A stretch of DNA of 64,000 nt from Rhizobium sp. Pop5. GTDB lineage: Bacteria > Pseudomonadota > Alphaproteobacteria > Rhizobiales > Rhizobiaceae. The notes below the pieces were generated by a model. It saw nothing but the letters and a program-made list of their open reading frames with translations, was not told the DNA's origin and did not search any database. The DNA lies in assembly GCF_024721175.1 (NCBI RefSeq), contig NZ_CP099399.1, forward strand, positions 1,984,001-2,048,000, in the 5' to 3' direction. Positions 1,172 to 59,473 of this stretch are shown piece after piece (the stretch's first letter is position 1; every line of letters starts with the position of its first letter). Made by a program: the position numbers and the translations under genes.

Positions 1172-1239
1172 GGTCTTGCCCGTCTTTTCAGCGAGATTTT
1201 GTGGGAAATCCGACGAGGCCAAGCCCAATTTCAGGGCAT

Positions 1240-1317
1240 AAAAAAAGCCCCGTCAGGAGCTCGATTTTCCGCGCATGGGGCTGATCGCCGGATGGTTACA
1301 CCATCCTGCCCATGCGC
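1240..1317 (-). promoter_or_regulatory. Transcription attenuator (terminator/antiterminator) of the MFS exporter
   Basis: Three mutually exclusive pairings are visible on the minus strand. Segment A (1317-1309, GCGCATGGG, inside the leader ORF) pairs perfectly with C (1279-1271, CCCATGCGC). The terminator pairs AGCTCC (1261-1256) with GGGGCT (1251-1246) around a TGAC loop and is followed by a T run to 1240. The antiterminator pairs AGCCCC (1282-1277) with the same GGGGCT. A small hairpin GGATGGT/ACCATCC (1306-1290) spans the leader stop codon. A ribosome held on the leader would mask A, free C to capture the terminator arm and allow readthrough. Confidence 0.78.
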
Positions 1318-1352
1318 CTTATCACCACGACAAGAACCATTGCGATCTTCAT
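1296..1352 (-). CDS. Leader peptide of the MFS exporter (18 aa)
   Basis: The ATG at 1352 opens an 18-codon frame encoding MKIAMVLVVVIRRMGRMV, ending in TAA at 1298-1296. It is rich in Val, Met and Arg. No Shine-Dalgarno sequence precedes it, and the predicted transcription start lies within a few bases of the ATG, so it is probably translated as a leaderless mRNA, as is known for trpL in Sinorhizobium. Codons 12-15 contain the strand that must be masked to release the antiterminator. It is too short to be called by length alone; the surrounding RNA switch is what supports it. Confidence 0.65.
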   Translation of the reverse strand: MKIAMVLVVVIRRMGRMV

Positions 1353-13694: not shown

Positions 13695-13828
13695 CCTCAT
13701 TCCTGTGCTTGTCACAGGAATCCAGTGCGCCCAGGTCCCTGGGCGCGGGAGACCCCTCTGTGGTAAAGAGTCATTCACGGCGCGGACGCGCCGTCGCTGG
13801 ATTCCTGTGACAAGCACAGGAATGAGGG
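13695..13828. repeat. Dispersed palindromic repeat (intact copy)
   Basis: Two inverted arms, ATTCCTGTGCTTGTCACAGG (plus AATCC) and its complement, flank a GC-rich core. The same unit is interrupted by the IS110 element at 58131-59375 and occurs in degraded form at 7889-8007. It fills most of the 346-base gap between the ABC ATPase and mannosidase genes; the remainder shows nothing else. Confidence 0.85.
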
Positions 13829-50764: not shown

Positions 50765-50898
50765 CGCATACTCGACGCACAAGGCCGAAAGCCCCACATC
50801 TGCCACCAAAGGCAGCGCCGAATTCAATCGTTCAGCCAAAACAACCTCCGTGCTGGCAGCGGGCCTCTTGCCCAGGGTTGGGCTTTTCGCCCGGCACG

Positions 50899-51266
50899 GG
50901 ATGGCAGGTCTCCTGGCTCGCGGGTATCGGCCGCGACCGGGACGACCGTTTCCGGTCGCCCCTGATCGTGCCAGCGGATCTGCCTCGCCTTCCCGGCTGC
51001 ATCTCGTGAAAAGGTGGACGATTCGTAGAAATAGAGGCGTCCGACCCCGGTTGATCACCATGCATTTCCAGTGGCTTTTCCGGCATCTCCTCCGCTCCGC
51101 CCGCCCGCACCATTGCGGGCTGCCGACGAAAAAGGCTCGATGCCGGATGCAAGACCCTGACCGCTCTACAGTCGCGGGGTCGGCTGTGATGAAAGCGCCC
51201 GGCTTGGGTCCGCCTCGTCACATTCCCTTTTCATCCGGAAAGCGTAACGCCGATCCGGAACCATCC
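50899..51266 (-). promoter_or_regulatory. Cobalamin (B12) riboswitch of the cobP-W-N-O operon
   Basis: On the minus strand the aptamer reads from 51266. P1 is GGATGG/CCATCC (51266-51261 with 50904-50899). Next come GGTTCCGG, AAAAGGGAAT, CCGCGACTGTAGAGCGG, AAAGCCACTGG, GGGAAGGCGA and finally the B12 box AGCCAGGAGACCTGCC (50918-50903). Inserts between core elements make it long. It is expected to lower cob expression when adenosylcobalamin is abundant. The platform downstream has GGGC/GCCC hairpins near 50860-50895. Confidence 0.93.
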
Positions 51267-51274
51267 GTTATATC

Positions 51275-51345
51275 CGATGATGGTCAGATGACCATCATCG
51301 TGGGATGGTCAGGCGACCACCCTTTATATCAAGGATGGTTAGGCA
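51275..51345. promoter_or_regulatory. Iterated GATGGTCA dyads upstream of the riboswitch
   Basis: CGATGATGGTCA and TGACCATCATCG form a perfect 12-bp hairpin with a GA loop (51275-51300). GGATGGTCAGGCGACCACC and GGATGGTTAGGC follow. They sit where the cobP promoter should lie; an operator array is possible. The rest of the gap to 51562 shows nothing else. Confidence 0.45.
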
Positions 51346-58001: not shown

Positions 58002-58179
58002 GGTCATCGCTCTCAACCGGGTCTGACTCGACAATTAATGGACTCAGTCAACTAATTTGACAAGTGCGCAACCGCAGTCGGTAAACACCAGTTCCCTGCT
58101 TCGAGCATCACTTCTTTCAAAAGACCCACTCCTTCATTCCTGTGCTTGTCACAGGAATCCTGTGTATTGGAACTGTGGT

Positions 58180-58318
58180 AGAAGGGTTGCGGGCGGAAAG
58201 CCGTCGGAATCCTGGTCGTGAGAGACCGTTTGCTGGCTCTTGGTCCTCCGCCCGCTTTCGATATCCCAACCTGAACAGTTGATAGAGGCCGTTGCCGCGG
58301 ACCTCGTAGCACAGGATG
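58180..58318 (+). ncRNA. Predicted bridge RNA of the IS110 element
   Basis: The left noncoding end folds into two loops. Loop 1 has outer stem GCGGGCGGA/TCCGCCCGC (58189-58197 with 58247-58255) and terminal stem GGTC/GACC. Between them GGAATCC (58206-58212) copies the left target flank, and GCTGG (58232-58236) is complementary to the right flank CCAGC. Loop 2 has ACAGTTG (58275-58281), copying the element's right end, and CACAGG (58310-58315), complementary to CCTGTG at its left end. These are the expected target and donor guides. Confidence 0.68.
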
Positions 58319-58327
58319 AGGCTTGCC

Positions 58328-59257
58328 ATGGTACACCCTGTTTTCATCGGATGCGACGTCTCCAAGGCGCATCTGGATCTTTTCGACGCTCAGACGCAGA
58401 AGCATATCCGCATCGACAACACGCCTGTTTCCATTGCTGGCTGGCTTGCAACCCTGGAGGGACGCGATGTCACTGTCGTTCTGGAGGCGACCGGACGTTA
58501 CGACAGACTGCTGTGCGTCGCGCTGGAAGAAGCCCAGCGGCCCTATTGCCGGGTCAATCCGGCCAGAGCCCGCGACTTTGCCAAGGCGCTCGGCCTTCTG
58601 GCCAAGACCGATGCGATCGATGCACGGCTGCTGGCGCATATGGGGCAAACGCTCTCTCCGCCGGTCAACGTGCCGCCCGATCCGTTGCACCGGCATCTGG
58701 CCGACCTGCATGGCCGGCGCGATCAGCTGGTGGCCATGCGCCAGCAGGAACGCGTCCGCATTCACAATGCCGATCAAAGCCAGCATGCCAGCATCGAAAG
58801 CCATATCGCCTGGCTCGACGACGAGATCGCCCGCATCGAGAAAGCCTGCCATGAACACGTGCGGGCAGATCAGGACATGAGCGAGCGGAATAAAAGGCTT
58901 CGCTCCATACCAGGCATCGGACCGGTGACGGCCTTCACACTGCTTGCCCATATGCCGGAACTCGGTGGCCGCTCGCCGAAAGCCATGGCCGCACTTGCCG
59001 GCCTTGCGCCCTTCAATGCCGACAGCGGCACCTTGCGTGGCCAGCGTCATATCCGTGGCGGGCGAAAGCGCGTGCGCGACGCGCTCTACATGGCCGCGCT
59101 CGTCGCCTACAGGATGAAGTCGCCTTTCGCCAGGACGGCCCAAACGATGATGGCAAAGGGTAAACCCCTCAAGGTCATCTTCATCGCCATCGCCCGCAAA
59201 ATCCTCGTCACAGCAAACGCTTTGCTCAGGGACAAGACGATGTTTCAGACGACCTGA
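58328..59257 (+). CDS. IS110-family DEDD transposase
   Basis: This 309-residue recombinase has an N-terminal RuvC-like DEDD domain (IGCDVSKAHLDLFD, LEATGRYDR, KTDAIDARLLAHM) and a C-terminal Transposase_20 domain (SIPGIGPVTAFTLLAHMPEL, with the conserved Ser in FNADSGTLRG). No frameshift or stop is seen, so it may be active. ATG 58328 has GAGG seven bases upstream; a start four codons earlier is less likely. Confidence 0.92.
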   Translation: MVHPVFIGCDVSKAHLDLFDAQTQKHIRIDNTPVSIAGWLATLEGRDVTVVLEATGRYDRLLCVALEEAQRPYCRVNPARARDFAKALGLLAKTDAIDARLLAHMGQTLSPPVNVPPDPLHRHLADLHGRRDQLVAMRQQERVRIHNADQSQHASIESHIAWLDDEIARIEKACHEHVRADQDMSERNKRLRSIPGIGPVTAFTLLAHMPELGGRSPKAMAALAGLAPFNADSGTLRGQRHIRGGRKRVRDALYMAALVAYRMKSPFARTAQTMMAKGKPLKVIFIAIARKILVTANALLRDKTMFQTT

Positions 59258-59473
59258 CAATACAGTTGCCAGCCACGGCGCGTCCGCGCCGTGAATGATT
59301 CTTTCCCAAGCAAGGTGTCTCTCGCGCCCAAGGACCTGGGCGCACTGGATTCCTGTGACGAGCACAGGAATGAGGAGGAAAGGTTAGGCGCCTCTGATCA
59401 ACCGTATATACCGTAGGGGACAGCCTTCCAGCCGGCGCAAGACGGGGCGGCAATCCCCCGGCGCATTCCATCC

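Follow-up and report, generated by a model that had tools for sequence, protein, structure and literature searches.

An intact IS110-group element interrupts a palindromic repeat

The window, the whole 64,000-nucleotide stretch of Rhizobium sp. Pop5 that was analysed, carries an intact IS110-group element at 58159..59270, read from the sequence as a 309-aa recombinase gene preceded by a left end that encodes a putative bridge RNA, and with CC cores at both ends (features with a direction lie on the + strand unless stated otherwise). The original prediction had taken this whole interval as the element; since one of the two cores belongs to the target, the element proper measures 1110 bp (58159-59268), starting with the left core (58159..58160), and the second core (59269..59270) is followed by the right target AGCC. 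The left junction reads GGAAT-CC-TGTG and the right junction CAGTTG-CC-AGCC, and both share CC at the crossover with the empty site, as originally proposed. A noncoding left end of 169 nt lies upstream of the ATG at 58328, and the right end, CAATACAGTTG (59258..59268), comprises the 11 nt past the stop. A short subterminal inverted repeat has its left member GTATTG at 58164..58169 and its right member, CAATAC, within the right end, which also holds the left donor ACAGTTG. The predicted circle junction reads ...CAATACAGTTGCCTGTGTATTGG.

The recombinase (P0001, 58328..59257, with a second in-frame ATG at 58316) scored above cut-off for PF01548, PF02371, and NF033542 ("IS110 family RNA-guided transposase") in a profile search. 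It combines the DEDD RuvC-like domain PF01548 with a C-terminal PF02371 domain bearing the conserved serine, as the IS110 group requires. Its nearest solved relatives are ISCro4 and IS621, and the alignment to ISCro4 covers both domains, with the DSG/ESG motif aligned.

The element sits in a roughly 134-bp palindromic repeat. The left arm (58134..58160) ends in the left target plus core (CACAGGAATCC), and the remainder of the repeat follows the element at 59269..59373, with the right arm at 59347-59373. An uninterrupted copy lies at 13695..13828 on the - strand, so the claim that the target is the arm of a repeat present intact elsewhere in the window held up: it is the same repeat in reverse orientation. 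At the corresponding locus of a relative (L146 in G085; neighbours SDR gene and cobQ, by eye), the repeat is uninterrupted and reads ...CACAGGAATCCAGCCACGG...; the insertion therefore brought in nothing beyond the element and a single additional CC. We compared 29 loci of relatives, 26 of which have both flanking anchors (L139, L140, and L153 have no right anchor and are outside this count), and the element is present in 0/26. Among these empty loci, L146 has an intact repeat, L165 a mostly intact one with a shortened left arm and AGT, and L159 a decayed one.

The genome holds two copies of the element, which are 100% identical and occupy the same position, in the same orientation, in different copies of the repeat. 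In the two repeat copies of the window, in L146, and in L001, one arm carries GGAATCCAGC and the other GGAATCCAGT. It is the AGC arm that is occupied in both genome copies (n=2), as the right target guide predicts.

Two RNA matches in the window lie outside the element. A cobalamin riboswitch match at 50886-51280 (- strand) spans 395 bases for a model of 189 positions and therefore seems to contain a long insertion, and an Atu_C8 rhizobial small RNA lies at 1230-1350 (- strand).

The left end encodes a predicted two-loop RNA with covarying helices

The target-binding stem-loop (58189..58255) was predicted by folding and by covariation, and the donor-binding loop (58270..58321), with an outer stem CCT/AGG and an inner hairpin at 58285-58305, by covariation. 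Folded alone, the target-binding stem-loop reaches -34.3 kcal/mol (z -3.35), and 0/200 shuffles are as stable. No excess stability was found for the whole left end (z -0.87, 45/200 shuffles as stable) or for the donor loop alone (z -0.34, 64/200); the support for the predicted donor-loop fold is comparative. A covariance-model search of the left end had been suggested as a check, and Rfam has no match in the element at gathering level, so no library bridge-RNA model backs the element's RNA.

For the comparison, we aligned 26 left ends, one row per element, which were picked by their end motifs and not by guide fit; this alignment (A1) leaves out extra copies of the same elements, loci without 5' ends, and most relatives of at most 44% identity with other end motifs. 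Across the four helices (stem and hairpin of each loop), 95.8% of cells are paired, compared with an average of 82.3% in shuffles and at most 51.5% in slid versions. Double-sided changes occur in 16/25 pairs, where shuffles average 9.1 and slid versions range from 3 to 11. This count includes a 3-pair donor-loop stem that was picked by eye. RNAalifold also proposed a helix between the left tip and the right donor guide; it contributes 6 of the 28 RNAalifold pairs and was excluded from the count because it equals the donor-guide match itself. The consensus fold of the 26 rows contains no 5' stem-loop before the target loop.

Four guides match the target and the element ends

The original prediction had paired GGAATCC and GCTGG in the first loop with the target flanks across the core, and ACAGTTG and CACAGG in the second loop with the right and left element ends; all four were found at the positions given, letter for letter. 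The left target guide GGAATCC, core included, lies at 58206..58212 (alignment frame 58204-58212), and positions 1-2 of this frame mismatch the target (guide TC, repeat CA). The right target guide GCTGG (58232..58236) is the reverse complement of the right target (RT) CCAGC. In the donor loop, the left donor guide ACAGTTG (58275..58281) equals the right end at 59262-59268 and is followed by AT, not by the core, and the right donor guide CACAGG (58310..58315) is the reverse complement of the left end CCTGTG. When the left end, minus its first 20 bases, was shuffled by mononucleotides, 0/20000 shuffles held all four matches together. Single matches turned up in 176 (left target), 5090 (right target), 150 (left donor), and 852 (right donor) of the 20000, so the 5-base right-target match is weak by itself.

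The AT after the left donor guide had been named as a weakness of the pairing. It is present, and we read it as a lineage trait. The left donor guide of IS621 is reported to pair with seven donor bases and, within the core, with the first base only (PMC11208158); its counterpart in the window pairs with the seven donor bases and with none of the core. In A1, this guide has A at position 8 in 9/26 rows (the window's element and 8/25 others) and C in 17/26. The nine A rows belong to two groups in the protein tree; one of these groups is poorly resolved and also holds an element with C (L071). Since position 8 varies within the group, core-base pairing is not a defining feature of IS110-group elements; nor is a CT core, because the window's core is CC and that of other relatives CT. 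Agreement between right donor guide and left end is complete (6/6 positions) in 17/25 rows and partial (1 to 5 of 6) in 8/25; the right donor guide of L104 and L103 is possibly out of frame in A1.

Candidate handshake guides follow both right guides. The target-loop handshake guide CT (58237..58238) has a C that fits the G at donor position 7, and the donor-loop handshake guide AT (58316..58317) fits the T and A at target positions 7 and 6. Across the compared elements, the donor-loop handshake base forms a Watson-Crick pair with target position 7 in 22/24 elements and a G-U pair in the other 2, A/G changing along with T/C; the second donor-loop base pairs with target position 6 in 11/24, plus 2 G-U. 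The target-loop handshake base is C, fitting the G at donor position 7, in 25/25, and thus shows no variation. The handshake pairs read in the window are A-T and T-A on the target side and C-G on the donor side, an arrangement reported to favour strand exchange in IS621 (PMC11208158).

Guides and targets change together among relatives

With the guide columns fixed by A1, we compared own guides with own targets in 24 elements, the window's included, at left positions 2-7 and right positions 10-12; L071, whose right end is missing in the contig, and L073, which has no left flank, are outside the 24. Of 216 non-core positions, 193 match, and permuting the elements gave a mean of 86.3 and a maximum of 136, with 0/100000 permutations reaching 193. 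Expressed per element, own pairs agree at a mean of 8.04 of 9 positions and cross pairs at 3.40. The 15 CC-core elements outside a group with C-run guides score 121/135 (permutation mean 75.9, max 105, 0/100000). Because relatedness inflates such tests, we also reduced the CC-core set to one row per distinct left guide, and these 11 rows score 87/99 (mean 53.9, max 81, 0/100000). Individual elements illustrate the agreement: L093 has TGGATCCC in guide and target and CCGGCTC in both, L094 has TGGGTCCC with CCGGTCT, L096 has TGGATTCC with CCGGC, and L076 and L078 (core CT) have GTCATCCT with CTCGGGC. The edge positions are weak (left 1 matches in 5/24 and right 13 in 8/24), and the guides of L095 and of some C-run rows fit poorly.

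The C-run elements belong to a sister group (L074, L075, L079, L092, L100, L101, and L115) in which the left target guide and the target are mostly runs of C, so that the exact insertion register cannot be read. Five of them (L074, L079, L092, L100, and L101) are in A1, with an ambiguous register.

Two relatives have rearrangements that involve the guide DNA. In L100 (44% identity), one copy has inserted precisely within the left target guide of a second, similar copy, the remaining RNA and gene parts of which follow on the right. Guide DNA copies the left target plus core and can therefore itself be hit. In L119 (52% identity), the tip is duplicated in tandem, from the left junction to the left target guide; the left target and its guide make a direct repeat that may be the cause. 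The words "self-target", "nested", and "tandem" are absent from the main text of PMC11208160, as are "self" and "tandem" from that of PMC11187229, and for self-targeting by an IS110 bridge RNA the open-access literature yielded a single use, in the CRISPR sense, in a review.

Copies, relatives, and the dispersed repeat

The repeat is dispersed in this genome, with 41 matches at E <= 0.001 when both strands and partial arms are counted. A 14-mer from it, CACAGGAATCCAGC, occurs 10 times here and is present in 103/148 genus genomes, this one included, and its reversed control occurs 0 times in this genome and in 0 genus genomes. An open-access literature search found no published name for the target repeat, and RIME/repeat terms gave no match there.

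The insertion does lie in a dispersed palindromic repeat, as originally proposed, and the further claim that the element is aimed at this repeat is weakened. What the guide specifies is the 10-mer GGAATCC-AGC (GGAATCCAGC), which has 27 unoccupied copies in the genome, 10 of them as CACAGGAATCCAGC and hence in the repeat arm, so this genome alone does not prove aim at the repeat, and two insertions in repeats show no preference by themselves. The element may instead not be tuned to the repeat at all, and repeats may simply be harmless intergenic places with the 10-mer in which insertions survive, a reading to which we give nearly even odds. By chance, both occupied sites would lie in repeats with a probability of about 12/29 x 11/28 = 0.16, and the TC/CA mismatch at guide positions 1-2 also speaks for this reading, as does an element on an Agrobacterium plasmid (L089) that has the same left guide and sits at CCGGAATCC-AGC, where no repeat was recognised by eye. 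Against it stand seven relatives outside the genus (L072, L083, L093, L094, L096, L113, and L120), which are flanked by TCATYCC (left) and GGRATGA (right) and have guides that fit their sites. The copies on two S. medicae plasmids (NC_009620 and NZ_CP104148) also argue against it, since each of the 5/5 distinct sites falls in a repeat arm of this type. TCATTCC has a one-base change at two of these sites, and at one the guides fit poorly. The proposed check that other copies should lie next to AGC came out positive for 7/8 of these S. medicae copies (4/5 distinct sites), which are at CACAGGAAT-CC-AGCC, and negative for the eighth (L091/L175), which has the opposite orientation, lies at CTGGCAT-CC-TGTGA, and is the one with the poor guide fit. 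In a general test of inverted-repeat context, exact inverted arms of at least 12 bases flank 11/38 insertion sites, with copies counted separately, compared with 11/760 random places. The pair TCATYCC (left) and GGRATGA (right) brackets 9/38 sites, a figure without a random control. The outcome of this test is mixed, and we do not extend the location in repeats to all relatives.

Homologous recombination or gene conversion between repeats, rather than a fresh RNA-guided insertion, could also account for the second genomic copy. It would fit the complete identity of the two copies, which continues for 25 and 28 bp into the repeat; farther out, however, the repeat and the unique flanks differ, and such an event would leave the first insertion unexplained, as well as the differing guides with differing targets of relatives. 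We regard it as unlikely. That the target is read by protein contacts of the recombinase, with incidental RNA matches, is very improbable given the guide-target covariation, the RNA covariation, and the established IS621 mechanism; nothing that speaks for it turned up.

The same genome carries two copies of a second IS110-type gene, 40% identical to the first (L130 and L132; G000:C2:2119832-2120731 and 2236073-2236972). Both lie at CCTCATC-CT-GAGG, a site that looks like another palindromic repeat, and with frames set by eye their left guide fits at 7/9 positions and CCTCAG fits against CTGAGG. This genome thus seems to host two bridge-RNA elements, each of which uses a repeat family of its own.

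Proposed mechanism

We conclude, with a probability of about 0.94, that the locus is an intact IS110-group insertion sequence whose left-end bridge RNA pairs with the target and with the circle junction, the recombinase joining the two at CC. The recombinase domains above cut-off, the four pairings, and the covarying fold all agree with the original prediction of an IS110 element with a readable bridge RNA. Precise insertion, an intact gene, a covarying predicted fold, guide-target covariation, and handshake complementarity can all be read from the compared DNA, and transcription, circle formation, binding, and catalysis would proceed by analogy with IS621. As in IS621, the element would be excised to a circle, and a promoter rebuilt across the circle junction may drive the bridge RNA. 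Pairing of the target loop with GGAAT-CC-AGC would involve the bottom strand for the left guide and the top strand for the right one. The donor loop would pair with ACAGTTG-CC-TGTG at the circle junction, and the recombinase would then exchange strands at the core CC with no other loss or duplication. The landing site would be the AGC-side arm of the roughly 134-bp repeat, which offers many copies of the 10-mer.

The putative promoter combines a candidate -10, TAGAAG (58179..58184), with a -35, TTGCCT, at a spacing of 17 bp; this -35 would form only in the circle junction (59266-59270/58161). This -10 is weak in the window, and L069 has TATAAA in its place. If it is right, the RNA would start 6-8 bases further on, at the first bases of the target-loop stem, which leaves no room for a 5' stem-loop of the IS621 type, so the promoter or the start may be misplaced.

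Relation to known systems

The element resembles IS621 of E. coli (PMC11208160; PMC11208158) in its recombinase domains, long left end, two-loop RNA, split guides for opposite strands, short inverted repeat of the ATA/TAT type, handshake guides, and insertion in a palindromic repeat, and it may also share the circle-junction promoter. It differs from IS621 as described there in having a CC instead of a CT core, a left donor guide that pairs with no core base, a left target guide whose match begins at position 2 or 3 in most rows, a consensus fold without a 5' stem-loop, and a different repeat. With elements of the ISEc21/IS1111 type, which use a seekRNA (PMC11187229), it shares an RNA-guided DEDD transposase and natural re-direction. 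Membership in the IS1111 group was considered and ruled out: IS1111 types are reported to have their RNA downstream of the gene and longer subterminal repeats of 11-13 bp (PMC11187229), whereas the RNA in the window lies upstream and the inverted repeat is only 6 bp. The element is an ordinary member of the IS110 bridge-RNA group with the details of its lineage, namely the CC core and a donor guide without core pairing.

The use of a rhizobial repeat by an IS110 element had been thought undescribed, which is not so. Tobes and Pareja reported in 2006 that all four of four copies of ISRm19, an IS110 family element of Sinorhizobium meliloti, lie in REP elements (PMC1525189). ISRm19 is thus alike in family and in its rhizobial repeat sites. 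It differs in sequence: two IS110 relatives on pSymB, which we take as ISRm19 by copy count, are 31% identical to P0001, and their presumed flanks look like another palindrome. For a bridge RNA of an IS110 element in rhizobia, we found no earlier description in the open-access literature searched. A listing of that literature for IS110 insertion sites in palindromic repeats of rhizobia gave only a paper on Acidithiobacillus. Natural re-direction between relatives has already been described (PMC11187229; PMC11208160).

It is possible, and we put it forward tentatively as less likely than not, that one IS110 lineage of alphaproteobacteria is specialised for landing in dispersed palindromic repeats and re-tunes both its target guides and its donor-loop handshake base as the repeats of its hosts change, with the side effect that guide DNA can be hit, as in L100. 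The relatives form a natural series of 18 distinct left guides and targets, with CC and CT cores, in which guides and handshake bases change together. Bridge-RNA design rules could be tested on this series beyond IS621, among them those for CC cores and for donor guides that ignore the core. For rhizobia, the bridge RNA offers a molecular reason for the insertion of IS elements in repeats that was noted in 2006.
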